Source: Spirochaetales bacterium
GTDB taxonomy: Bacteria > Spirochaetota > Spirochaetia > JC444 > Marispirochaetaceae
Assembly: GCA_016935695.1 (NCBI GenBank)
Contig: JAFGQL010000166.1
Span: 1 to 37,411 of the forward strand
DNA: 37,411 nt
Direction: 5' to 3'
Of the stretch, positions 1-24,665 are shown one piece after another. The position numbers were made by a program, and so were the translations under genes. The notes under the pieces are model-generated. The model was not told the origin of the DNA, made no database searches, and was given only the letters and a program-made list of their open reading frames with translations. Position 1 is the first letter of the stretch. Each line of letters begins with the position of its first letter.

Positions 1-3000
1 ACTTCTCTCTCCATTCAGCTGAACGTGGATAACACCCTGCCGACAGGCGAGTTTAACTACAACGATGACCTTGCGGACACGGGAGGCATCTACTCCTTCT
101 ACGGCAATGCCACAGACGGCGGTGATTATCTTTTGATCGGCAGTGCCGAAGATGCAGGAACCATCAGCGGTATTGAATCGGTGCAGGTGTATTTCGTGAA
201 AGGCGGTAATTTCTACAACCCGACCACCGGCGCGACCACCGCGGTCACGACAGCCGATGTTCCCGATATGACCGGAACGCCGGTGACCATACCGTTTATT
301 ACCGACGCGGCATATATCATTGATGTAGACAAGCGTTCAGAACGCGGTCTTTATGACAGCGATCTTACCGACGGAGACCAGGACGGGTTCCAGGAATCCC
401 TCCGGTCCATGGGGACCTTTGATCAGTGGTATGTATATTTTGATACCACGGTTTTCCCCGACGGGCCGATGGACATGTATACCGTGGTATATGACGAGGC
501 GGGAAATTACGCCTACGAACAGATGGACATTCAAATCGTCAACAACCCGCCGACCATAGACAGTATTGAGATAGACGGCATCGGAACCGAGTATACCGGC
601 TTGTTCAAACGTGCCAACTCGGTATATTTATTGGTGAACGCGTCAGACCTTGAGGGCATAGACCCGGCCAGCTATCAGGCAACGATTACCGGCAGACGCA
701 TAGCACCCAACGGCGCGGATGATCCCACCGGTACTCCTGTAGTGGGTACGGTACTGGATATCGCGGACACCGGCGACGGCTCTGCAGCCAATGATATCAC
801 CATAGATGTGTCCGGTTGGGAATCGGGCGTTCAGTACACCCTCGAGATCGAGGTGCTGGATACCGACGGAAACATAGTGGTTTCTGAGCTTGAGCTGTGG
901 GTGAATAATGTGGATGCCACACCGCCGACGGTGGCAATGGACGACATTACCCAGGCGAACATAGACGGAACGACCGGGTATGTAAATGAAGCGGGCTTCT
1001 CTACCAACGACGGCGCAAGTACTGTCGGAGCGATAACCAGTGTGACCGGCGACAGAACAGCAGTGACCTCAAACGCCCTTATCGGCAACGGCAGCATCCA
1101 GTACGGATGGACCGCGGCCTTTGAAACAGGCGAATGGCGCTCGGTTGAGTCCTTTGATGCAGGAACAGGAGAAATCACCCTGTCATCTGCCCTGACCCAG
1201 ACTCCCACGGGAGACGTGACCTTACAAGAGGGGCAGGCGGACATTTCCGGTGTGATTACCCTAACCGGTGCGGCTTATGATGACACCATTGTGACTGATG
1301 TTGAGCTGTCCTTTGACGGCGGCACAACCTGGTACTCGGTGGACACCATGACTCTTGACGGCGGAAACGACATCGAAGGTTTTGACTACTCATGGACCTA
1401 CACCATCAATACAGGAAACCCGACAGAAACCACAAGTTGGAACCAGGCCCTTCTGAACCACGAGATCATGGTCCGTGCCCAGGATGGCTCCAACCCGGGT
1501 GTCCTTACAGAAAGCGGTGAAAGCCCCAACAAGACAGTGGACATTGTGCCCTATATCACCTCAGTGACCAGGGAAACAACCGGCCTCAAGACCTACCGGT
1601 CAAGGTTCGGACGGTATTCGGTATACCACAACGAAGCCGATATCGTGGTCAGGGGTTTCAACCTGAATCCGGCCTCCGCGGGGCTGTATCCCAACGCAGC
1701 CGGTACGGGCACTCCTGACACCCTTACGGTGAGCGGTATTGCAGCTGACCATACCAGCTTTGAACTGACAACCGGCAACACCACCAGAAGCGGCTGGCTC
1801 GGCATACGGGTAGACGGCATTGACGCGGTGAACAACACCAATGACAACAGCCTGGACTACAATAACTCCTACGGCACCGACGGTGACGAAGATGATTACA
1901 GCGACGACCGGTACTTCTTCCTGTTCAGGGTAGGCGAGTATTTCGGTCCCGACGCGAACAGTTCCTACAGTCCCCAGCACCCCGCCATGACCATACATCC
2001 GACCACGTCCCGGCTCTTCGGCGCCTGGTCGAGTTACGCGACTTCCGATGTGTTCTTTGCATCGACAAACACAGACGCCGACGCGTTCAGAAGCAGGGTG
2101 TACCACACCTATGACACGGCGGAATACATAGACATCGCCATGGACGCGACAGCCCCCACCACCACCGGCCGCCTTGCCCTTGCGTGGCTTTCCAACAACT
2201 CGTCTGACGGTAACTATGCTGACGGTCATGTGACCTCATTCCCCTACGAACGGGATGCGGACTTCATAAACGGAGATGTGGACCAGTGGTGGGAAGAAGC
2301 AAATCTTCCTTCAGACGATCTACAATGGTCGCGAGGCGGTTTTGATAACTGGTATTACCAGGGTGAAGGTTTGTCTTATGACAGCGAGCTGTTCCAGTTC
2401 ACCGGTGTGAAAACCCAGCGCTACGGCGCCAATACCCACTGGGCCTACCACGACACCATCTCCATGACGGTGAAGTACCAGCATGTGCTTACCTCTCTTA
2501 ACAATGAAAATGAAATTACGAACTGGGTAAACATTGACGGTACCGATACCGATACCGACGGCGGCGAGAATAACAGGATGGTGACCAACGGGGTTGCCAG
2601 AACAGATGAAGCGGGAGAATACCTGGATCTGACCCTGGACGAGGATTATTACCCTGTGCTTGTCTACTATGACGGAGTTAATAAGACCTTGAAACTCGCG
2701 CGTACCGGTTCTACCGCCCCGGGGGCCGATGAAAATCAGTGGACCCGCCAGGACGTGTTCCTGGGCGACGACCCCAACAGGTCCTTTACAGGGAAACATA
2801 TCTCGGCGGTGGTAGACGGAGACGGGTACCTCCACATCGCGTTCTGGAGCGATGATACCGGGTACTTGTACTACATCAGGTCTACCAATAACCCGGAAGG
2901 GGGGGCAGCCTACACCTTCGGCTACTCGGAAATTGTGGACGCGACCGGTACCGCCGGTATTTACGCCGACCTGACCTTGAACCGGAGTACCAACGAGCCC

Positions 3001-3237
3001 TACATTGCCTACTTGAACCAGGCGCGTCTGAATACCCGTGACGGTATCAAGATTGCCTACTACGACAGCACTCTCGGCGGATGGGAATACCTGGTGGTTG
3101 CCAATACTACTGTTGTATCTCAGAAGCGTATAAGTGTTGAGTACGCCAGGGGCGGCAGCCCCGACTGGCAGGCAGCGATCGGTTACGCCTCGGATTACCG
3201 CTTTGAACTGAACTACCTGATGCCCGAGGTGCCCTAA
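1..3237 (+). CDS. Large secreted/surface protein with Ig-like, TIG-like and propeller-like regions (5' partial)
   Basis: The frame is open from the first base of the window, so the true start and any signal peptide lie upstream; the first in-window candidate (GTG at 25) is not a credible start. At least 1078 residues are encoded. Bases 1 to about 1545 read as beta-rich Ig/cadherin-like modules separated by VNNPPT (near 540) and VNNVDATPPT (near 905) linkers. Bases about 1550-1830 resemble an IPT/TIG domain. From about 1930 to the end there are repeated blade-like motifs such as DGDGYLHIAFW and NEPYIAYL, as in propeller or sialidase-like folds. I see no cysteine, and Asp, Thr, Gly and Tyr dominate, as in extracellular adhesins. 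No catalytic motif is evident. Function unknown; export to the surface is inferred from composition and domains. Confidence 0.75.
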   Translation, partial: TSLSIQLNVDNTLPTGEFNYNDDLADTGGIYSFYGNATDGGDYLLIGSAEDAGTISGIESVQVYFVKGGNFYNPTTGATTAVTTADVPDMTGTPVTIPFITDAAYIIDVDKRSERGLYDSDLTDGDQDGFQESLRSMGTFDQWYVYFDTTVFPDGPMDMYTVVYDEAGNYAYEQMDIQIVNNPPTIDSIEIDGIGTEYTGLFKRANSVYLLVNASDLEGIDPASYQATITGRRIAPNGADDPTGTPVVGTVLDIADTGDGSAANDITIDVSGWESGVQYTLEIEVLDTDGNIVVSELELWVNNVDATPPTVAMDDITQANIDGTTGYVNEAGFSTNDGASTVGAITSVTGDRTAVTSNALIGNGSIQYGWTAAFETGEWRSVESFDAGTGEITLSSALTQTPTGDVTLQEGQADISGVITLTGAAYDDTIVTDVELSFDGGTTWYSVDTMTLDGGNDIEGFDYSWTYTINTGNPTETTSWNQALLNHEIMVRAQDGSNPGVLTESGESPNKTVDIVPYITSVTRETTGLKTYRSRFGRYSVYHNEADIVVRGFNLNPASAGLYPNAAGTGTPDTLTVSGIAADHTSFELTTGNTTRSGWLGIRVDGIDAVNNTNDNSLDYNNSYGTDGDEDDYSDDRYFFLFRVGEYFGPDANSSYSPQHPAMTIHPTTSRLFGAWSSYATSDVFFASTNTDADAFRSRVYHTYDTAEYIDIAMDATAPTTTGRLALAWLSNNSSDGNYADGHVTSFPYERDADFINGDVDQWWEEANLPSDDLQWSRGGFDNWYYQGEGLSYDSELFQFTGVKTQRYGANTHWAYHDTISMTVKYQHVLTSLNNENEITNWVNIDGTDTDTDGGENNRMVTNGVARTDEAGEYLDLTLDEDYYPVLVYYDGVNKTLKLARTGSTAPGADENQWTRQDVFLGDDPNRSFTGKHISAVVDGDGYLHIAFWSDDTGYLYYIRSTNNPEGGAAYTFGYSEIVDATGTAGIYADLTLNRSTNEPYIAYLNQARLNTRDGIKIAYYDSTLGGWEYLVVANTTVVSQKRISVEYARGGSPDWQAAIGYASDYRFELNYLMPEVP

Positions 3238-10591: not shown

Positions 10592-11752
10592 ATGAACAGA
10601 GAACTGGCTGCAACTCCGCCCATGGGGTGGAATTCGTGGAACATGTTCGGTCCCGCAGTAGACGAAGAAAAGATAATGCGGACTGCCGACACACTCGTAA
10701 AAAAAGGGATGAAGGAACTTGGGTATACCTATGTGGTCATTGACGACTGCTGGACCATTAAGGACGGCCGTGACCCGCAGGGCAACCTTGTTCCCGATCC
10801 CGGCCGTTTTCCGTCGGGGATCAAGGCCCTTGCTGATTATGTGCACAGCAAAGGCCTCAAGCTGGGTATCTATTCAGACGCAGCGGACCGGACCTGTGCG
10901 GGATATCCCGGCAGTTACGGACATGAAGAACAGGACGCCGCCCTGTGGGCATCCTGGGGCATTGATTTTTTGAAATACGATTACTGCAACGCTCCCTGGG
11001 ACCAGAAAAGCGCCATAGAGCGTTACCGGCGGATGGGGAATGCCCTGGCTTCCTGCGGTCGGGATATTCTTTTTTCCCTGTGTGAATGGGGCGCCCGCAG
11101 TCCCCACCTGTGGGGAAAGACCGTCGGCGGAAGCATGTGGCGTTCGTCGGGGGACATTTTCGACAGCTGGGTGGACATATGGGTACAGCCTCCGGGCGGT
11201 ATCGGTTATTACGGTGTGGGTATCGACACCAATATAGAACTGGCTGCCCGGATTGCCGGTTACGGCGGTCCCGGGGGATGGAATGACCTGGACATGCTGG
11301 TTGTCGGTCTCAAAGGCAAGGGGCAGATTGAAGGCAATGGCTTAAGCCCCTTTGAATACCGCACTCATATGAGCGTCTGGTCCATTACCTGTTCGCCCCT
11401 GTTTATCGGCTGCGATATTACCGCCATGGACGCCGATACAGAGGCCATCCTTACAAATCCCCATGTTATCGCCGTCAACCAGGACCCTCTCGGTGTCCCC
11501 GGGAAGCGCATTCTTTCAAAAAACGGCTGCGACGTGTTCCGCAAACCTCTTCATGACGGCAGCACCGCCATGGCAGTGGTCAACCGTGGATCAGCGCCTG
11601 CCGAGTGTTCCTTCTCTGCCGGTGAACTGGGTTTCCTGGACACCGAAAAAACCGTGTTCGATATCTGGCAAGGGGCAAATACCCATGAATTCACCGGGGA
11701 CCTCCGGGTGAAGATAGAGGCCCACGAAACCAAATTCTGGCTGATACCTTAG
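10592..11752 (+). CDS. Alpha-galactosidase, glycoside hydrolase family 27
   Basis: The 386-residue protein opens with PPMGWNSWNMFG, the GH27 signature, and continues with VIDDCW, GLKLGIYSD, FLKYDYC and RSSGDIFDSW. By family pattern Asp130 (in KYDYC) is the nucleophile and Asp188 (in SSGDI) the acid/base. The barrel is followed by a short beta domain near residues 300-386. It would release terminal alpha-galactose from oligosaccharides such as melibiose or raffinose types. There is no signal peptide, so it should act in the cytoplasm on imported sugar. GGAGG precedes the ATG. It lies 45 bases behind the helicase gene and may be co-transcribed. Its stop overlaps the stop of the convergent kinase gene by four bases. 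Confidence 0.92.
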   Translation: MNRELAATPPMGWNSWNMFGPAVDEEKIMRTADTLVKKGMKELGYTYVVIDDCWTIKDGRDPQGNLVPDPGRFPSGIKALADYVHSKGLKLGIYSDAADRTCAGYPGSYGHEEQDAALWASWGIDFLKYDYCNAPWDQKSAIERYRRMGNALASCGRDILFSLCEWGARSPHLWGKTVGGSMWRSSGDIFDSWVDIWVQPPGGIGYYGVGIDTNIELAARIAGYGGPGGWNDLDMLVVGLKGKGQIEGNGLSPFEYRTHMSVWSITCSPLFIGCDITAMDADTEAILTNPHVIAVNQDPLGVPGKRILSKNGCDVFRKPLHDGSTAMAVVNRGSAPAECSFSAGELGFLDTEKTVFDIWQGANTHEFTGDLRVKIEAHETKFWLIP

Positions 11753-16065: not shown

Positions 16066-16476
16066 ATGAAAGCATACGGAAAACTTATAAACGGCAGTTT
16101 ACGGTCGGTCCTCACCGATGACAGGGGACACGAAGTGTTGAGCGATGTTGGCCAGGAGTTCGGCGGTGAAGACACCGCGCCGAGCGCCCTGGAATTGACG
16201 GCCCTTTCCCTCGCGGGGTGTCTGACCACCATATGGGGCATTGTGGCAAAGAATTCCGGGGTAAGCTATACGGACTTCGAGGTGGAGATTGATGCCGAGA
16301 AGGACAGCCCCATGGGCACCATCTGCAAGGCCAGGGCCACTGCCCGGGTCAGCTCCGGCGAGGACCGTGTAAAGCTGGAAAAATGTTTCGAGAAGGTCCT
16401 GAAATCCTGTCCCGTCGGCCAGATATGGGAAAAAGCGGGGATTGATCTGACCGAGGAACTGGTTATTCGAGACTGA
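16066..16476 (+). CDS. OsmC/Ohr-family protein
   Basis: The 136-residue protein shows OsmC-family patterns: a beta-rich start, the APSALELTALSLAGCLTT helix with Cys52, and a CPVGQIWEKAG segment with Cys115. These are the two cysteines expected for thiol-dependent reduction of organic hydroperoxides, though many OsmC-like proteins lack a proven peroxidase role. I start at the ATG at 16066, which gives a family-typical N terminus; the frame is open back to 15964 but those residues look non-coding. There is no strong ribosome-binding site. Its last 14 bases overlap the end of the convergent tonB gene. Confidence 0.85.
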   Translation: MKAYGKLINGSLRSVLTDDRGHEVLSDVGQEFGGEDTAPSALELTALSLAGCLTTIWGIVAKNSGVSYTDFEVEIDAEKDSPMGTICKARATARVSSGEDRVKLEKCFEKVLKSCPVGQIWEKAGIDLTEELVIRD

Positions 16477-17107
16477 ACCGGATCGGATAGCGAAAGCGTA
16501 CGGCTACCGGCGTTTCGTTGGCCATGGCAGGGGTGCAGGTAATGCCTTCAAAGGCCGCCACGGCCGCCTGGGCCAGGCCGTAGCCCGGGTCTTTCAATAC
16601 CTCGATATCGCGGATACGCCCCGTACTGTCGATATACAGCATCAGATACACGACCCCTTCTATCTTTTGTTTGTTTGCCAGGGCCGGGTAGATGATATTT
16701 TCCCGGATGCGGTCGGTGGGGATGCCCGGAGGTCTGCTGATTTTATGCTGGGGAAGGTATTCAATGGGTGCATCGGCTTCCATGACGGTCTTGTCGGTCA
16801 CTTTCACGTCCTCTACCACCCCTTCCTGAGGGTCGACTTCAATCACTTCTTCCCGCTTGGGCGGCGTCTTTTCTACAGGTTTATCTTCCTGCTCCTTCAC
16901 CGGGGCAAGCTCTGTTATGTCCACCACCTTGAAAATGCTATGGTCTATCCTGTCCTCTGCCGGTACCGTCTTGAAGGTGAGGGTTAACAGTAGTATGACA
17001 TGGACCGCGGCGGCGGCGCCGTATACCAGGGTCCTGCTCCACGGGGGAACCGATCGATTGCCAGTGCCCACACGGGGCGGCAGAGGCTGTTTCATGATGG
17101 TTTCCAT
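16463..17107 (-). CDS. tonB: TonB-family energy transducer
   Basis: The 214-residue protein has one N-terminal membrane helix (LVYGAAAAVHVILLLTLTF, about residues 28-46). A charged Pro/Glu/Lys/Val periplasmic linker follows, then a C-terminal TonB domain (IIYPALANKQKIEGVVYLML, ID.TGRIRDIEV, FRYPIRFSL). It spans the periplasm and passes ExbB/ExbD energy to outer-membrane receptors, here most likely the two at 19404 and 22128. AAGGAG sits six bases before the ATG, and the upstream exbD stop overlaps it as TAATG, so translation is coupled. It is last in its operon. Confidence 0.93.
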   Translation of the reverse strand: METIMKQPLPPRVGTGNRSVPPWSRTLVYGAAAAVHVILLLTLTFKTVPAEDRIDHSIFKVVDITELAPVKEQEDKPVEKTPPKREEVIEVDPQEGVVEDVKVTDKTVMEADAPIEYLPQHKISRPPGIPTDRIRENIIYPALANKQKIEGVVYLMLYIDSTGRIRDIEVLKDPGYGLAQAAVAAFEGITCTPAMANETPVAVRFRYPIRFSLE

Positions 17108-17511
17108 TATACATTCTCCTTGACGACAAGGGATACAACCCTGTGCTGCAGGATCTGCAGGGTTTCCATGATGGTGTTGATATGGCGGTAGGGTGTGTGC
17201 CGGTCCGCGAGGATGTGTATCCGCAAGGACGGATTTTCTGCAATTTCGCCGGCAATGATTCCTTCCGCCGTTCTTGCCGTTATGAGAGCGCCTTCATGAA
17301 AAATGTCCCCGTCCCTTGTGATCCACAATTCAAGGTTTGCGTCGGCGTTGACCGACTCCTGCATCACCGCTTCCGGGTATTCAATTTTTATTTCCTTCCG
17401 GTAGTTTATCAGGGAAATAAGCATGATGAATATGAGAAGGAGGAATGCGATATCCGACATGGAGTTGATGGGGATAATGGGTTTCCTGCGCGCCTTTTTT
17501 GTCAGGTTCAT
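17107..17511 (-). CDS. exbD: ExbD-type proton channel subunit, copy 1
   Basis: This 134-residue protein has a short basic cytoplasmic N terminus, one membrane helix (DIAFLLLIFIMLISLINY) and a periplasmic domain. Asp20 at the start of the helix (SMSDIAFLL) matches the ExbD proton-carrying Asp. ExbD works with ExbB in the inner membrane to energise TonB. It starts at an ATGA overlap with the other exbD (17508-17511) and ends at a TAATG overlap with tonB. It differs clearly from the neighbouring exbD, so this is a two-ExbD system and not a recent duplication. Confidence 0.92.
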   Translation of the reverse strand: MNLTKKARRKPIIPINSMSDIAFLLLIFIMLISLINYRKEIKIEYPEAVMQESVNADANLELWITRDGDIFHEGALITARTAEGIIAGEIAENPSLRIHILADRHTPYRHINTIMETLQILQHRVVSLVVKENV

Positions 17512-17924
17512 TGCTGAGCACCTCCGTCTTTCATGGCAAAGGAAAAGTTCTCCACTTCTGTCAGCCGTACCATGTCGATGATGTCCACCACGTCCTGGTA
17601 TTCGGCATCGGGATGTATGTGCAACAGGAAGGTCGCATTGGGCCGCAGGGCTATCATGTCCTTTGTCCGGCGCTCAAGTTCCTCCATGTCCAGACTTTCT
17701 CCGTTTGCCGAAATGCTTCCGTCGGCGGCTATCCAGACTTTCATGATGTCGTCTATGTTCACAATTTTCTGGGAGTCCTTTTTGGGCAGTTCCAGAATGA
17801 AGCCTTTGTTGATGTTGAATACCGCGATGACGATGAAAAACACGATCAGCAGGAAGGCCAGATCGCTCAAGGCCCCTGAGTCGGCGATATCGATGCGTTT
17901 TTTGCGTGTTTTACGTATGTTCAT
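17508..17924 (-). CDS. exbD: ExbD-type proton channel subunit, copy 2
   Basis: This second ExbD/TolR-family protein has 138 residues. Basic start MNIRKTRKKR, then GALSDLAFLLIVFFIVIAVF as the single membrane helix with Asp21 at the conserved proton-relay place, then a periplasmic domain with a KIVNIDDIMKVWIAADG strand-helix pattern. It lies 39 bases behind exbB. GGGGAG occurs about 11 bases before the ATG. With two distinct ExbD chains the complex could be hetero-oligomeric, or one could serve a different TonB partner. Confidence 0.92.
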   Translation of the reverse strand: MNIRKTRKKRIDIADSGALSDLAFLLIVFFIVIAVFNINKGFILELPKKDSQKIVNIDDIMKVWIAADGSISANGESLDMEELERRTKDMIALRPNATFLLHIHPDAEYQDVVDIIDMVRLTEVENFSFAMKDGGAQQ

Positions 17925-17963
17925 AACCCGTGTTTCTCTCCCCTGGACTCTTCCCGGGCGGTT

Positions 17964-18602
17964 TTACCGCGCAAAGGTTCCGCGCTGTTCTGTTACCAAT
18001 ACCTGGGTGATGATCCGCGACCCTGTTTCCTCTATGCGCGCAGAAAACTTCTCTGTAACATGGGCGAATATGTTGTAGGCCGTGATGGCTACAATGGCGA
18101 TGGAAAGTCCGAAGGCTGTGGTGATGAGGGCCTCGAAAATGCCTCCCGCTACCAATTGGGCGTTGACCTCCGCCGCATTCGCGATGGACTGGAAGGCGCC
18201 GATCATTCCCGAAACAGTCCCAAGAAATCCGGTGATGGGAGCAATGGAACCGATGGCAATGAGCAGGTCAAAGCCGGTTTCCATTCTGTTGATCTGTTCC
18301 GAAGCCTCGGTCTCCATGGCCTTTTCCATCCGGTGTTCGCCCAGCTCATACAGCTTGAGTCCCGAAAGGAACACCAGGGGTGCGACGGACTGTTTTTTAG
18401 CCGTCTGGCACAGGGCGACAGCGCTGCCAGTGTTTCCGGAATCAATCTTCTCCAGAATCTGGGCGGCGATGGTATCGGTTTTCAGATCGTGGATGAAGAA
18501 GTAGATGCAGCGCTCAAGAACAATGGCAACGGTGGTGATGGAAAATACGAGAAGGGGCCACATTGCCCATCCTCCAAGGCTGAAAAGATCCTGTAAACTC
18601 AT
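17964..18602 (-). CDS. exbB: ExbB/MotA/TolQ-family proton channel protein
   Basis: The 212-residue protein has three membrane helices: near residues 13-34 (WPLLVFSITTVAIVLERCIYFF), near 112-136 (LLIAIGSIAPITGFLGTVSGMIGAF) and near 155-185 (ALITTAFGLSIAIVAITAYNIF). The GFLGTVSGMI and TTAFGLSIAI motifs are hallmarks of this family. It forms the pentameric stator around ExbD. Its AGGAG site lies inside the last codons of the upstream lipoprotein gene, whose stop is two bases before this ATG, so the two are co-translated. Confidence 0.93.
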   Translation of the reverse strand: MSLQDLFSLGGWAMWPLLVFSITTVAIVLERCIYFFIHDLKTDTIAAQILEKIDSGNTGSAVALCQTAKKQSVAPLVFLSGLKLYELGEHRMEKAMETEASEQINRMETGFDLLIAIGSIAPITGFLGTVSGMIGAFQSIANAAEVNAQLVAGGIFEALITTAFGLSIAIVAITAYNIFAHVTEKFSARIEETGSRIITQVLVTEQRGTFAR

Positions 18603-18604
18603 GA

Positions 18605-19393
18605 TTATCTCCTGTAAAGTTGGAATTTTTCTATGTATTCATTGGCGACAAAGGCCAGGTTATATAATGACAGAAGCATCTGCGGGGCTTCTTCAAAGTC
18701 CCTCCACAGGCTGCCTGAATTGCGTAAATCATGCAAATGTTCGGGAAATTCCTTTTCGGTATAGCCTGAGTCCCAGGTTTCGCCCCGCTCAAGGCAGCCG
18801 ATATCGCTGACATCCTTCCGGTTGTAGTACTCAGGGAACAGAAATGCTCCCTGGACATTTATGAACCCGTCGCCGTAGGCAGTCTTTTTCTTCATGCTGC
18901 CGCTCACCTTCGGAAAATGCCTGTCGGTCTTTAAAAAACGCGCCAGTTCTTTCATCCGGTCCACGCGCTGGCGGGCCTTGTGAAGGCCGTTGTCTCCCCG
19001 GAAATAGGTGTCGAAATAGCGGATTTCGCCCTTTTCTATTTCCCACAATTCCAGGGGGGCCGTTACGTTGACCCATAAGCCGTTTCCGCTTTCGACAAAG
19101 GTGTAAGTTCCGGAGGCCTCGTAGCGGCAGTGGGTCCAGCCGTTTGGCCAGTTGCCGAACATGTTCACCGAGGTGACGGAAAAGGTCCGCGGATTGGACC
19201 TGTCTGTCTCGCCGATGATCTCAAGTCCAGGCAGGAGGGTGGATGTCATGACGGTCTTGCCGTCCCTGGCAACGGTGATTGTCAGTTCCCCGCCTGCATA
19301 CAGCCTGTAGTCAACGGGGCCGGTTTTTTCACGGGTCGCACAGGACACCGCGGTGGTAAGGGCTACTACCAGTATGATCAGTTTCTGTTTCAT
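18605..19393 (-). CDS. Lipoprotein of unknown function embedded in the TonB operon
   Basis: This is a 262-residue protein with a short signal peptide and lipobox TAVSC (Cys18). The mature part starts with a beta-rich domain (ELTITVARDGKTVMTSTLLPGLEIIGE, about 33-60). Helical and Tyr/Trp-rich segments follow, ending with a helix (LLSLYNLAFVANEYIEKF). I recognise no family. It is too small for a SusD-type partner. It starts 10 bases after receptor 1 ends, with AGGAAG overlapping the receptor's stop region, and runs directly into exbB. That position suggests an accessory part of the uptake system, perhaps a periplasmic or surface ligand handler; this is inference. Confidence 0.8.
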   Translation of the reverse strand: MKQKLIILVVALTTAVSCATREKTGPVDYRLYAGGELTITVARDGKTVMTSTLLPGLEIIGETDRSNPRTFSVTSVNMFGNWPNGWTHCRYEASGTYTFVESGNGLWVNVTAPLELWEIEKGEIRYFDTYFRGDNGLHKARQRVDRMKELARFLKTDRHFPKVSGSMKKKTAYGDGFINVQGAFLFPEYYNRKDVSDIGCLERGETWDSGYTEKEFPEHLHDLRNSGSLWRDFEEAPQMLLSLYNLAFVANEYIEKFQLYRR

Positions 19394-19403
19394 GTTGTTC
19401 TTC

Positions 19404-21962
19404 CTAATAACTGAGCTTCATGCCGAAGCTGGGAATGATAAAGCTGAAATCAGCGCTTGGCGCGTTGGTGTCCTCGCCGGTGTAAGGGTCGGTCTGGATT
19501 GAATCTTCAGGGGCCATTTTGGCAAGGAATGACGACAGCACGTCCTCAACGGCGACGTAAAACTCCCACTGTACCTTGGACTGTTTGTAGTAATTGTGGA
19601 AGGACAGCTTGAAGTCCAGGGGCAGCGAGAAATAGGTCCGCTCGCTGTCGCTGTAGATCATTTCCCTGGTATACCGTTCGGTGACGGTATCCGTGCCGCT
19701 TCCGTCGGTTATGACTGCGGGGTACATTGTCTTTTCTCCGGATACCCTTTTCGGAGTCCCCGTGGCGAAGGCCAGCTTGGTGGTAAAGGTCATCCAGTTT
19801 GTGGGCTTCAGGTTCAGAAGGAAATTCAGGGTGTGGAACCGGTGAAAGTCCGGAAAGTACCAGCCGCCGGTACCGTCTCCCGTTGTGGTGATTATTCCGT
19901 TGCCTTCCGGCAGCGGGTCTTTGTACCGGGCCCAGATGAACGAGTAGGACAGCATACCGTCCCAGTAACGGGAGGTTTTGCGGTCGATAAGGAAGTCAAA
20001 ACCCGCAGCGTGGCCGATGCCGTCGTTTTTTATGATGAGCTCCTGGTTTCCGGTCGCGTCGTCGATACGGGCGGCGTAATAAAACCGGTCGTACAGATAT
20101 TTGTAGTAACCTTCGATCCTGAAACGGAGGTTCGACGGGAGCTCGGTTTCCCATCCGGCGACGGTCATCAGGGACTTGGGCATGGTAATGTCGAAACTCT
20201 CAAGGCCCATTTCCTTTGTAGCTCCCAGGGCGTCGAAAGGAACCTTGGAAAAAATACCCGATCCCAGACTGAAGGTCTGTTTTTTAAGGAAGCCGCCTTC
20301 TCCCGGCAGGGTATACCGGAGACTGAGTCTCGGACTGGCGATAGGGTAGGTATTGACTTCAAAATCCTTTGCCCAGATGTACCCGTGGTCTGCCCGGGCG
20401 CCGGCGTTGACCTCCATGGCCTCGTCAAGGAGTTTCCATGACAGGTTGGTATAGGCAAAGGATTTAAGGACCGACGTTTCATCTGCTTTTGTGTCGTAGC
20501 TTGCCTTTACCAATTCCGGAACGCCATCGCTGTAATCGGTGAAAAAATAGTTCCCCCGGTTTTCTACAGTGGTAAGGTCGTAGTAGGCGCCTGTCCCGTT
20601 CTGCCAGACAAGGGAATCGTTTATGGCAAAGTCGGTATCAAACCGTCCCTGGGCCCCCTGGTTCAGTATGTCGTTGATAAAGGCGCTTTCCATGTCCACC
20701 GTGAAAGTGTCGCCGTCAGAAAGGCCAAAGCTTGCACCGAAGGTGTCGATGAACTCATCCGAATATTCCCGTGTGCCGAATTCCCTCATTTCGCCGTCGA
20801 TGGAAGCGAGCCAGTATTCATACCCCCCCAACAGGTTGATGAGGAGCCGCTCGCCGGCCATTATTTTGACACCGGTGTTTACGAAGGCGTCGGTATTGTA
20901 GAACTTGAAGTCAAAATCATTGACGATACCATTGGTATTTTCCAGGACCTCATCGGTCACTTCGATGCCTATGCCGTCGTTGCCGGCGAAGGCGTTGACA
21001 TACCATTCGAATCCGTCATGAGGCCGGTACACGGTCTTGAAATAGGCGTCGTAAATGTAGGGTATCCGGGAAAAAGTCGTTCCCTGTTTTTCCATTTCCG
21101 ACCGTGAAAGCTCAAAGGACAGGTCGTAGCTGGTCAGCCGGAATCCGGCGAACATACCGGCTTTTGTCCCTACCGGCATTTCCACAAAGGCTTCCTCTGT
21201 ACTTAGGGACGAGACCACCGACCAGGAAAGGCCGTCTCCCAGGTTTTCGTAACCGCTGTGGGCCTGGGGGCTTATGGTGTTTATTTCCAGAAGACCGGAA
21301 CCGGCATCGCCGTGTTTGGCCGTAAAGACACCCGGGGAAAACTTGACCGATTCCACCATGTTAGGGTTGAAGATGGAAAACCCGCCGCCCCAGTGGTAGG
21401 GGTATTTGACCACGAATCCGTCCTGGACGGCCGTCATTTCCCCGGGGGCTCCGCCACGGACCGACAGATAACTGTTGAACATGCCGCCGAAGCTGACACC
21501 CGGGAGCATGGCTACCGAGCTCATTACATCTTCTATCAGGCCCATTTTGGAGGCGCTCTGGATTACCTCTTTCTCGATGACGGTGGATGTGCCGACTTCC
21601 TCGTCGGTTTCTCCGATGGCTTTTTCAATGACGACAAGCTCCTCCCCTTCGAGAATGCCTTCCATCAACAGTTCGATGGTTACGGGTTTTGAAAAATCCC
21701 TGATGAGTATTTTTCTTGGTTCGTAACCGATGAGCTGGGCTACAAGTACCACCCTGTCTGTCCCGTCGGCTATGGCCATCACCGCGGTACCAGATGCATC
21801 GGTGAATATCTGTGTCCCGGATTCAGTAACGCTCAAGAGAACGCCTTCGAGGGGGATCTCCAGATCCCTGTCCATTACCTGTATTTTCAAGTCGATCGCG
21901 AAAAAACGTACCGAAAGACATACAAGGGCGAAAATTACTGCTGTCAGTTTCTTAATGTTCAT
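19404..21962 (-). CDS. TonB-dependent outer-membrane receptor 1
   Basis: The 852-residue protein has a signal peptide (about 1-22) and a carboxypeptidase-regulatory-like beta domain (about 24-100, ending LIGYEPRKILIRDF). A TonB-box-like stretch EELVVIEK follows (107-114). The plug carries MLPGVSFGG, LSVRGGAPGE and GDAGSGLLEI, and a long barrel ends in FGMKLSY with a terminal aromatic. It should bind a ligand at the cell surface and import it with TonB energy. The ligand is unknown. The lipoprotein, exbB, exbD, exbD and tonB genes follow with gaps of 39 bases or less, so it probably leads that operon. It is a clear paralogue of the gene at 22128. Confidence 0.92.
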   Translation of the reverse strand: MNIKKLTAVIFALVCLSVRFFAIDLKIQVMDRDLEIPLEGVLLSVTESGTQIFTDASGTAVMAIADGTDRVVLVAQLIGYEPRKILIRDFSKPVTIELLMEGILEGEELVVIEKAIGETDEEVGTSTVIEKEVIQSASKMGLIEDVMSSVAMLPGVSFGGMFNSYLSVRGGAPGEMTAVQDGFVVKYPYHWGGGFSIFNPNMVESVKFSPGVFTAKHGDAGSGLLEINTISPQAHSGYENLGDGLSWSVVSSLSTEEAFVEMPVGTKAGMFAGFRLTSYDLSFELSRSEMEKQGTTFSRIPYIYDAYFKTVYRPHDGFEWYVNAFAGNDGIGIEVTDEVLENTNGIVNDFDFKFYNTDAFVNTGVKIMAGERLLINLLGGYEYWLASIDGEMREFGTREYSDEFIDTFGASFGLSDGDTFTVDMESAFINDILNQGAQGRFDTDFAINDSLVWQNGTGAYYDLTTVENRGNYFFTDYSDGVPELVKASYDTKADETSVLKSFAYTNLSWKLLDEAMEVNAGARADHGYIWAKDFEVNTYPIASPRLSLRYTLPGEGGFLKKQTFSLGSGIFSKVPFDALGATKEMGLESFDITMPKSLMTVAGWETELPSNLRFRIEGYYKYLYDRFYYAARIDDATGNQELIIKNDGIGHAAGFDFLIDRKTSRYWDGMLSYSFIWARYKDPLPEGNGIITTTGDGTGGWYFPDFHRFHTLNFLLNLKPTNWMTFTTKLAFATGTPKRVSGEKTMYPAVITDGSGTDTVTERYTREMIYSDSERTYFSLPLDFKLSFHNYYKQSKVQWEFYVAVEDVLSSFLAKMAPEDSIQTDPYTGEDTNAPSADFSFIIPSFGMKLSY

Positions 21963-22127
21963 ATCAATTCGAATAATCCTTTTTTAGTATACGTTCATCG
22001 TACATCGTGTTGAACACCACGCGGGCAAGAAGGTGTCACTTTATATCCTTATGAAATACCGCTGTACTGCTCAGATATTTTCATGTATTCCGGTTTTTTT
22101 ATGAGTTTCCTTTGAATCGTTTGCTGA
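21963..22127 (-). promoter_or_regulatory. Promoter/operator region upstream of receptor 1
   Basis: Read on the minus strand, TATACT (21986-21991) is a good -10, with a weak -35 (TCAACA) 16 bases upstream. The perfect 11-bp palindrome GTGTTGAACAC (22007-22017) overlaps that -35 and is a candidate repressor site. AAGGA lies before the ATG but 14 bases away. No hairpin terminator for receptor 2 is evident in this gap, so read-through from receptor 2 is possible. No gene is seen. Confidence 0.4.
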
Positions 22128-24665
22128 CTAATAACTCAATTTGAGTCCGAAACTGGGAATAATGAAACTGAATCCGGGACCCGGATCGGCAGTGCTGCCT
22201 CCTCCGTATCTATCCGGGTGCTGGGAATCTTTCTGCTGCATTTTCGCGATTACGGGAGAGAGTATATCCTGTACTGCTGCGTAAAATTCCCACTGCACCT
22301 TTGAATCTTCACCGTAGTTGTGAAACGACAGCTTGAGATCGAGAGGCAGTGAAATCGTCCGCCTTTTTGAGTCGCTGTAGATCTGCTCGCTGGTGTACAT
22401 TTCTGCAAGGGTTGTCGATCCGTCATCATTGAGTATTTCGGCAGGATACATGTACCAGTCTCCGAATACGGGTTTCGGCGTTCCCGTCGCGAATGCAAGC
22501 TTTGTCGTAAACGTGATACGGTTCGATGGTTTTATGTTCACGAGCAGATTGACTGTATGGTAGCGGTGGAATGCCGGGTAGTACCAGTCTCCCGTGGATT
22601 CACCGCTTCCCGGCTCACTGCCTATGCCGTTCTGTGAGGCTGCGGGGTTCCTGTACCGTGCCCATATAAAGGAATAACTGAGCAAACCGTCTATATGGCG
22701 GGAGATCTTTCTGTCAAGAAGCAGATCGAATCCGGCCGCATGGCCGATACCGTCGTGGTGTATGTCCATTGACTGGATTCCCGTGGTTTCATCGACATAT
22801 CCTGTCATGTAACTCCTGTCGAAAATATACTTGTAATAACCTTCGAGCCTGAACCGCATGTCCGCCGGTAATGCCGTTTCCCACCCGGCAATGGCCATAC
22901 ATGTTTTTGCCATGGGCAGCTGATATGTCTTTCCGGCCGGTTCGTCCGTTCCCGCCATGAACGGCGGCATGTGCGCGAATATTCCTGCTCCCATACTGAA
23001 GGTCTGGTGCAGGAGGATCCGGTTTGTGCCGCCGGGAGTATATGTAGCGTTTATGCGGGGGCTTGCGAAGGGAACTGTGCTCACCGTTGTTGCATGTGCG
23101 TCCCGGGAGTACCCCCAGTCAAGGCGGACACCGCCGTCCATGTTCAGTTTTCTGTCGCGGGAATGCCAATTCAGATTGCTGTATCCGAAGGTTTTCAATA
23201 CCGAAAGTTTGTCCGCTTTTGTAGAGAACTCCGCTTTGCGGTAGACAATCTGCTCGCCGCTGAAATCATCGAAGTAGTAGGTGCCGTCGATCCTGCTGGT
23301 AGTAAGGTCAAAAAACGAACCGGCTCCGTTTTGCCAGATTACCGAATCGTTCACCGCATAGTCGCAGTCTATCCTTCCCTGAATGCCCTGGGTGACGGAA
23401 TCCTCGGAGAAATGGGTGTCGAAGTCGACGGTAAATGTATCGCTTTCCGGATGCAGGTATTCCTTGAACAAATCCGAGTATACGCCGGTGCCGAACTCCC
23501 GCTCTTTCCCTTCTACCGTATGGAGCCAGTATTCATACCCGCCGAGGACGTGGAGCAGGACTTTTTCGTTAGGCATATACCGTACACCGGAGTTTAGGAA
23601 CCAGTCTGTGTTGAAATAGGACAATTCAAAATCAGTGGCAATATTGTCCCCGGCTTTCTCAAGCATTTCGTCGGTGACTTCTGTTCCCACACCGTCATTC
23701 CCGGCGAATCCGTTTACATACCATTCCAGGGATTCGACAGGCCGGACGAAGCTTTTAAAGTAAATGTCGTAAATATACGGAATGCGGGAAAACGTGATTC
23801 CCTGCTCCTCCATGATGTCCCTGGTCATCTGGAAGGACAGGTCGTAGTTGGTGAATCTGAACCCGCCGAATACTCCGCCAGAGTTGCCCAGGGGCGCTTC
23901 CACAAAACCTTCGGCAGTACCCAGTGCGGCGACCGCTGAGTAACGAAACCCCCGGTCCGGTGTTATGGTATGCACCTCAAGGACTCCGGAGCCTGCGTCG
24001 CCGTATTTCGGCGAGAATACCCCCGGTGAAAACTTTACCGATTCGACAATATTCGGATTGAATATGGAGACTCCGCCGCCCCAGTGAAACGGGAATTTCA
24101 CGACGAATCCGTCCTGGAGCACCGAAAGTTCCCCCGGGGCCCCTCCGCGGACAGACAGACTGTTCTCAAAAGTCCCGCTGAAACTCACCCCAGGGAGCAT
24201 GGCAACCGATGTCATGACATCTTCAATTATTCCCATTTTTGAAGCGCTTTGTATTGTTTCCTTTCCCATCACGGTTGAGGTGCCGACTTCCTCGTCAGTC
24301 TCACCCATGGCCTTGTCTATGATGACCAGCTCTTCCCCTTCCAGGACCCCTTCCATTATTAACTCGATAAGAACGGGGTTGTGGAAATCCCGGATAAGGA
24401 TTTTCCGCGGTTCGTAACCGATCAACTGTGCCAGGAGTACCAGACGGTCAAGGCTGTCAGGCAGGGTGAGTACCACAGTCCCGTTTATGTCGGTATACAC
24501 CGGTTCGCTCAGCTCCGGGCTGCTCAGCATGACCCCTTCCATGGGTATGTCCAGGTCCTTGTCTATGACTGTTACCGTGAGGTCCAACCCGTACAGGGGC
24601 AGGAAAGCGAAAAAACAGACAACGGCGCATACCGTCGAAACAAGGCGCGGTGAATGAGATGTCAT
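22128..24665 (-). CDS. TonB-dependent outer-membrane receptor 2
   Basis: This 845-residue paralogue of the receptor at 19404 has the same order: signal peptide, carboxypeptidase-regulatory-like domain, EELVIIDK TonB-box-like stretch, plug (MLPGVSFSG, LSVRGGAPGE, GDAGSGVLEV) and barrel ending FGLKLSY. The plug and its lead-in (GTSTV..KE.IQSASKMG) are nearly identical between the two, while loop segments of the barrel differ in sequence and length. That suggests a shared TonB partner and different or diversified ligands. AAAGGATG precedes the ATG. It has its own upstream gap (24666-24730), so it may be separately expressed or head the whole cluster. Confidence 0.92.
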   Translation of the reverse strand: MTSHSPRLVSTVCAVVCFFAFLPLYGLDLTVTVIDKDLDIPMEGVMLSSPELSEPVYTDINGTVVLTLPDSLDRLVLLAQLIGYEPRKILIRDFHNPVLIELIMEGVLEGEELVIIDKAMGETDEEVGTSTVMGKETIQSASKMGIIEDVMTSVAMLPGVSFSGTFENSLSVRGGAPGELSVLQDGFVVKFPFHWGGGVSIFNPNIVESVKFSPGVFSPKYGDAGSGVLEVHTITPDRGFRYSAVAALGTAEGFVEAPLGNSGGVFGGFRFTNYDLSFQMTRDIMEEQGITFSRIPYIYDIYFKSFVRPVESLEWYVNGFAGNDGVGTEVTDEMLEKAGDNIATDFELSYFNTDWFLNSGVRYMPNEKVLLHVLGGYEYWLHTVEGKEREFGTGVYSDLFKEYLHPESDTFTVDFDTHFSEDSVTQGIQGRIDCDYAVNDSVIWQNGAGSFFDLTTSRIDGTYYFDDFSGEQIVYRKAEFSTKADKLSVLKTFGYSNLNWHSRDRKLNMDGGVRLDWGYSRDAHATTVSTVPFASPRINATYTPGGTNRILLHQTFSMGAGIFAHMPPFMAGTDEPAGKTYQLPMAKTCMAIAGWETALPADMRFRLEGYYKYIFDRSYMTGYVDETTGIQSMDIHHDGIGHAAGFDLLLDRKISRHIDGLLSYSFIWARYRNPAASQNGIGSEPGSGESTGDWYYPAFHRYHTVNLLVNIKPSNRITFTTKLAFATGTPKPVFGDWYMYPAEILNDDGSTTLAEMYTSEQIYSDSKRRTISLPLDLKLSFHNYGEDSKVQWEFYAAVQDILSPVIAKMQQKDSQHPDRYGGGSTADPGPGFSFIIPSFGLKLSY

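Follow-up and report, generated by a model that had tools for sequence, protein, structure and literature searches.

The window analysed here is a stretch of 37,411 nucleotides from a Spirochaetales bacterium and represents contig C165 of a 3.0-Mb, 182-contig genome that is 82% complete. On its minus strand, it carries seven genes of the TonB-dependent (Ton) transport machinery: two receptors, a lipoprotein, the proton-channel subunit ExbB, two ExbD proteins and TonB. This locus is likely a self-contained cassette, found in Spirochaetia, for TonB-dependent transport across the outer membrane. In it, an ExbB ring with two different ExbD chains would drive the import of an extracellular ligand. 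Of interest here are the unmatched lipoprotein, the ancient split of the ExbD proteins and the apparent role as sole energiser in several spirochaetes; the Ton parts are otherwise of a known kind. Literature searches found no paper on this locus, and to our knowledge the TonB systems of spirochaetes other than Leptospira have hardly been described.

Layout and recurrence of the gene block

The block consists of the following features, with lengths in amino acids (aa) or base pairs (bp) and the respective Pfam matches.

22128..24665, minus strand: R2 (receptor 2), TonB-dependent transporter, 845 aa; Plug PF07715, 5.4e-7
21963..22127, minus strand: R2-R1 gap, 165 bp
19404..21962, minus strand: R1 (receptor 1), TonB-dependent transporter, 852 aa, adjoining the lipoprotein (the usual position); Plug, 1.6e-6
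18605..19393, minus strand: lipoprotein, 262 aa; lipobox Cys18
17964..18602, minus strand: exbB, proton-channel subunit, 212 aa; MotA_ExbB PF01618, 1.7e-29
17508..17924, minus strand: exbDa (first ExbD), 138 aa; ExbD PF02472, 8.3e-20; membrane Asp in ALSDLAFLL
17107..17511, minus strand: exbDb (second ExbD), 134 aa; ExbD, 1.2e-16; membrane Asp in SMSDIAFLL
16463..17107, minus strand: tonB, 214 aa; a single hydrophobic segment near the N-terminus and a C-terminal domain at 138-213; TonB_C PF03544, 5.7e-15

The open reading frame (ORF) listing and Pfam confirmed all seven genes in the place, on the strand and in the families given by the initial annotation, and the matches to TonB_C, both ExbD, MotA_ExbB and both Plug domains exceeded the Pfam cut-offs. 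The description of the last six genes as tightly packed was also right. According to the coordinates, R1 to tonB are nearly contiguous, with spacings of 10 bp (R1-lipoprotein), 2 bp (lipoprotein-exbB) and 39 bp (exbB-exbDa) and overlaps of 4 bp (exbDa/exbDb) and 1 bp (exbDb/tonB), and R2 is set off by 165 bp. This gap would have room for a second promoter; it contains one promoter-like match at 22013-21986 (TCAACA-16-TATACT), and such matches are no commoner there than in shuffles.

Using the lipoprotein as bait, a single-sequence search returned 35 of the 395 genomes of the class and an alignment search 39. A check of the gene order in relatives, as proposed in the initial annotation, showed that the order receptor-lipoprotein-exbB-exbDa-exbDb-tonB recurs across Spirochaetia and is kept in nearly all larger stretches around the lipoprotein matches. 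The arrangement is not due to chance, as 57 of the 73 distinct lipoprotein genes lie between a receptor and exbB (L052 was assigned to this placement by eye, because an over-long overlapping ORF hid the receptor). The others adjoin exbB only (3) or a receptor only (4), stand alone (2) or are located at contig ends (7). The receptor was present in 48 of the 395 genomes and accompanied the lipoprotein match in the 39 genomes in all but two marginal cases (E 2.5e-4 and 7.5e-4) and one fragment. While a mixed lipoprotein alignment gave no usable conserved stretch, the receptor alignment worked, and with it 80 loci were obtained from named genomes, which belong to Treponema, Breznakiella, Brucepastera and unnamed Spirochaetales; carriers of the block include the cultured Breznakiella homolactica and Brucepastera parasyntrophica. 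The nearest relatives of the window receptors came almost entirely from records named Spirochaetes, and the class was accordingly taken as Spirochaetia.

The pairwise distances of all six block genes correlate with each other (r 0.51-0.87). Neighbour clustering revealed no flanking gene common to window-type loci, and none of the ten flanking window genes checked was conserved beside related loci. A flanking purA in common with L085, L087 and L089 was treated as coincidence, because the genes are just 36-37% identical and the intervening genes differ. Since the block recurs in order without any conserved flanking gene, it is a cassette, in agreement with the earlier description of receptors, ExbB, two ExbD proteins and TonB as a self-contained unit. 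As far as can be judged from sequences, this block moves between species as a unit. In two genomes (L056 and L057 in G369 and G376), the lipoprotein gene is found alone behind a proC-like gene, with the receptor and the exbD pair on other contigs. Locus L076, from a record titled 'Clostridia bacterium isolate SZUA-474', has a receptor that falls within the spirochaete group beside that of L075, and the record is probably mislabelled or a mixed assembly.

The paired ExbD proteins and the two receptors

The two ExbD proteins had been called unlike, and with 28% identity and a position in separate clades this was confirmed. In a tree of 70 loci, the ExbDa proteins form one clade and the ExbDb proteins another (70 rows each, support 99/100). 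The branch between the two positions is thus strongly supported, and the two genes must have separated before the sampled members diverged. The membrane channel Asp is kept in 70/70 ExbDa and 70/70 ExbDb sequences and lines up with the corresponding residue of the E. coli ExbD sequence used as a marker. Almost all complete loci in the comparison have retained the two genes as a pair. A heterodimer within the ExbB ring best accounts for two channel-competent copies that are never interchanged, and the data therefore suggest that ExbDa and ExbDb form an obligate heterodimer. Tandem exbD pairs in Ton loci were described for Xanthomonas (PMC3551730) and Myxococcus (PMC6434023), so the arrangement itself is not new. 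The ton cluster of Xanthomonas campestris, tonB-exbB-exbD1-exbD2, likewise contains two tandem exbD genes, but its exbD2 is dispensable for iron uptake, and it differs from the spirochaete block, of which a receptor and a lipoprotein are part (PMC3551730). The fixed, ancient ExbDa/ExbDb pair is a natural system for asking whether the two ExbD chains of a Ton motor differ in their job.

R1 and R2 are paralogous, as initially annotated: they are 57% identical and sisters in the tree with a support of 100. With branch lengths of 0.29 for R1 and 0.69 for R2, the tree indicates that R2 arose from an R1-like gene by lineage-specific tandem duplication and is the faster-evolving copy. Independent tandem receptor copies occur in four loci elsewhere (L052, L058, L108 and L135). 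In R2, a signal peptide is followed by a beta domain (~27-106), a putative TonB box (~112-117, ELVIID), the plug (~127-236) and the barrel (241-844). The AlphaFold model of R2, with a predicted local distance difference test score (pLDDT) of 84.3, contains a beta-rich domain at 27-102. Although a sequence search found no solved relative of the receptor, Foldseek matched the model to many solved TonB-dependent transporters with E < 1e-18 (down to 6e-22) at 8-14% identity. These matches favour no ligand class, as iron, cobalamin and other receptors were matched about equally. The ELVV/ELVI segment before the plug is conserved across 58 receptors, with E112 and L113 of R2 nearly invariant, and by this conservation it qualifies as the probable TonB box; in the R2 model, it falls in a low-confidence (flexible) stretch. 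For the N-terminal domain, R1 gave a CarbopepD_reg_2 (PF13715) match of 0.0015 and 18.9 bits, below the cut-off of 32.2, and R2 gave none; PF13620 was matched in Pfam by neither receptor.

In the initial annotation, the plugs were considered nearly identical and the barrel loops different. The plug is indeed the most conserved part, but it reaches just 77% identity, compared to 60% for the N-terminal domain and 54% for the barrel, and the divergence extends across the whole barrel. The proposed loop comparison, conducted with DSSP on the R2 model, gave 48% identity for extracellular loops and 59% for strands, with approximate loop bounds since 24 instead of the usual 22 strands were assigned. 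The loops therefore differ, but barely more than the strands, and divergence specific to the loops was rejected, as the external barrel half was not significantly more diverged than the periplasmic half (p = 0.11). As the barrel has diverged throughout, the two receptors may, but need not, differ in ligand specificity. Gene conversion between the plugs was rejected as well, because identical plug codons agree at only 31% of their four-fold sites, a value like that of the barrel. Saturation affects silent sites in all parts of the genes, and the plug is thus kept by selection and not by recent conversion.

Proposed mechanism and competing explanations

In the proposed mechanism, the ExbB ring would enclose a single ExbDa together with a single ExbDb, and this obligate heterodimer would stand in place of the usual ExbD homodimer. 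Proton flow through the ring would move TonB, which would pull on R1 or R2 at the TonB box, and this pull would open the plug and allow the extracellular ligand to enter the periplasm. As R2 diverged faster, a second ligand may belong to this duplicate. With less certainty, the lipoprotein would be a partner protein anchored in the membrane, with a role either in capturing the ligand or in stabilising the contact between receptor and TonB.

The lipoprotein had been termed an orphan. It has no match in Pfam, NCBIfam or PHROGs and hence no named family, but the 73 distinct members found show that it has relatives, which are spread over Spirochaetia and some other Spirochaetota. They are 19-42% identical to the window protein and have the lipobox Cys, a GW motif and an SG..xRDxEE motif in common. 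The confident AlphaFold model (mean pLDDT 91.7, predicted template modelling score 0.85) consists of an N-terminal beta region and subsequent helices. A Foldseek search against the PDB gave nothing significant (best E 0.03, template modelling score (TM) at most ~0.3), sequence profiles identified no related solved structure, and a viral fold match with an E of 6e-4 was discarded as meaningless (TM 0.15, root-mean-square deviation 18.5). Without a named family and without a PDB or viral fold match, the lipoprotein is assigned to a conserved uncharacterised family and is a candidate partner of receptor or motor. The SusC-SusD glycan importers of Bacteroidota also combine a TonB-dependent receptor with an adjoining lipoprotein gene and an N-terminal extra domain. 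Beyond this likeness, the window lipoprotein has neither a SusD match nor a solved fold match, and carbohydrate genes do not recur at the loci. Membership in the SusD family was rejected, since the window protein has no Pfam match and 43 relatives compared with Pfam gave a single marginal, irrelevant match and none to SusD.

Several results weigh against the cassette as proposed. A rumen Treponema branch keeps receptor and motor without the lipoprotein, which is thus not essential to the mechanism, and the correlation between lipoprotein and receptor distances vanishes once exbB is considered (partial r 0.02). Furthermore, no Rfam riboswitch was found in the window or five relatives, the Fur box is not enriched upstream of the receptors, and no metabolic or pathway gene is conserved as a neighbour.

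It is possible, albeit unlikely, that the lipoprotein is instead an accessory of the ExbB-ExbDa-ExbDb-TonB motor, for instance a TonB anchor at the outer membrane or peptidoglycan. Its partial distance correlation is highest with exbB (0.36), several loci have one lipoprotein with two or three tandem receptors, and in three genomes (G246, G332 and G336) lipoprotein, exbB, exbDa and exbDb stay together with the receptor elsewhere. On the other hand, four loci (L107/L163, L161, L164 and L167) contain a receptor-lipoprotein pair without an adjoining motor gene, G408 has three such pairs, and the rumen Treponema loci have the motor alone. The distance-correlation test did not separate a receptor-bound from a motor-bound lipoprotein, and we slightly prefer the receptor partner over the motor accessory.

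The locus could also serve the uptake of iron/haem or cobalamin in the ordinary way and simply have no recognisable neighbours, which we regard as rather improbable. TonB-dependent transporters most commonly carry these ligands, and the fold matches of R2 are compatible with them. Control by a riboswitch or Fur was rejected in view of the missing signals, and no iron or haem ABC (ATP-binding cassette) gene recurs. In addition, the set of tonB, small receptor and propeller on contig C67 of the same genome appears more cobalamin-type, and on C131 a receptor goes together with ABC permeases and a PstS-like binding protein. The initial annotation had pointed out that no cofactor, siderophore or glycan gene reveals the ligand, and neighbour clustering and flank comparison agreed that none is consistently beside the block. 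A single glycan gene was noticed in the vicinity. It encodes an alpha-galactosidase (Melibiase_2, 10592-11752, plus strand) and is flanked by the genes for a DEAD-box helicase and for a dCache histidine kinase; it lies ~4.7 kb from tonB on the opposite strand and was not seen beside other loci.

In 16 related loci, mostly of rumen Treponema, a gene for a caspase-like protein is found directly upstream of the receptor (including L085, L087, L089, L092, L095, L096, L098, L103, L105, L106, L110, L111, L115, L117 and L121). The protein of ~750 aa has a signal peptide, a PF00656 match of 39-44 bits (cut-off 21.4), intact His/Cys motifs and a repetitive C-terminal part that ends in Phe in the L089 example. 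Its gene often follows two others, one for an extracytoplasmic function (ECF) sigma factor and one for a ~260-aa protein. Most of these ~260-aa proteins showed a hydrophobic segment around residue 85. Most caspase-gene loci have no lipoprotein, and at least L085 and L089 have both (L087 carries the caspase gene). A far-reaching and quite unlikely interpretation is that TonB receptors have partners of a new structural class, of which this lipoprotein would be the first to be noticed. Together with the permanently split ExbDa/ExbDb, it would form a variant Ton machine, and this machine would be the only Ton motor in many spirochaetes. The partner role would have passed in rumen Treponema to the secreted caspase-like protein under the ECF sigma factor, as protease-linked transport or sensing.

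Export, with an Oar-like receptor that would let a periplasmic protein out, is the least probable alternative and very doubtful. In Myxococcus xanthus, the protease PopC is reported to leave through Oar, and in the Ton-Oar system (tonB1-exbB1-exbD1-exbD2) the receptor is encoded, as here, with tonB, exbB and two exbD genes (PMC6434023). Like R1 and R2, Oar has an extra N-terminal domain, a TonB box and a plug, a likeness by parts list, and the caspase-gene loci resemble the protease link (PMC6434023). However, the block of the window and of most loci contains no protease gene, although unlinked cargo is possible; Oar carries PF13620, compared to the sub-threshold PF13715 in R1; and no lipoprotein gene is named in the Ton-Oar set (PMC6434023). 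With the N-terminal domain below the carboxypeptidase-regulatory cut-off and nearly all characterised TonB-dependent transporters being importers, the import cassette is retained.

Probable use of the motor by other receptors

The initial annotation inferred a locus dedicated to one ligand class and an energiser shared by two receptors. Sharing is supported by the independent tandem receptor duplicates and by G408, in which the three receptor-lipoprotein pairs accompany one exbB-exbDa-exbDb-tonB set of this type. Dedication does not stand as a general rule, since no ExbD apart from exbDa/exbDb was found in seven relatives (G203, G246, G332, G336, G340, G369 and G376), most of which have other receptors. 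The complete genome G246 encodes five plug-domain receptors, four of them outside this family, with one ExbD pair. Unless a strongly diverged ExbD was overlooked, receptors that are unrelated to each other must draw on these four motor genes there, and in such relatives the four-gene motor would be the only one for all receptors. The pair may thus be a general outer-membrane energiser in seven genomes of the class, and the motor is more aptly called a general Ton motor, often accompanied by receptors of one family. In the genome of the window, four plug-domain receptors and four TonB C-terminal domains are distributed over contigs C67, C69, C131 and C165, together with three ExbD-bearing loci, and with these other Ton genes a dedication of this locus is possible.

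Elsewhere in the window, a 1070-aa open frame at 25-3237 (plus strand) has no Pfam match at E 1e-5. Two further loci of the same genome were observed. The C131 locus (L072) comprises exbB-exbB-exbD-tonB, the gene for a TPR protein and that for a receptor of 1079 aa, which has a carboxypeptidase-regulatory domain; the PstS-like binding protein and two ABC permeases follow, and the set looks like a locus for TonB-dependent uptake of the phosphate type. On C67 (L181, 7644-11451), where no exbB/exbD match was found on the contig, tonB, a YncE/DUF5074-like propeller and a small receptor form a possibly cobalamin-type set, and a GH10 glycosidase gene is located beside tonB.

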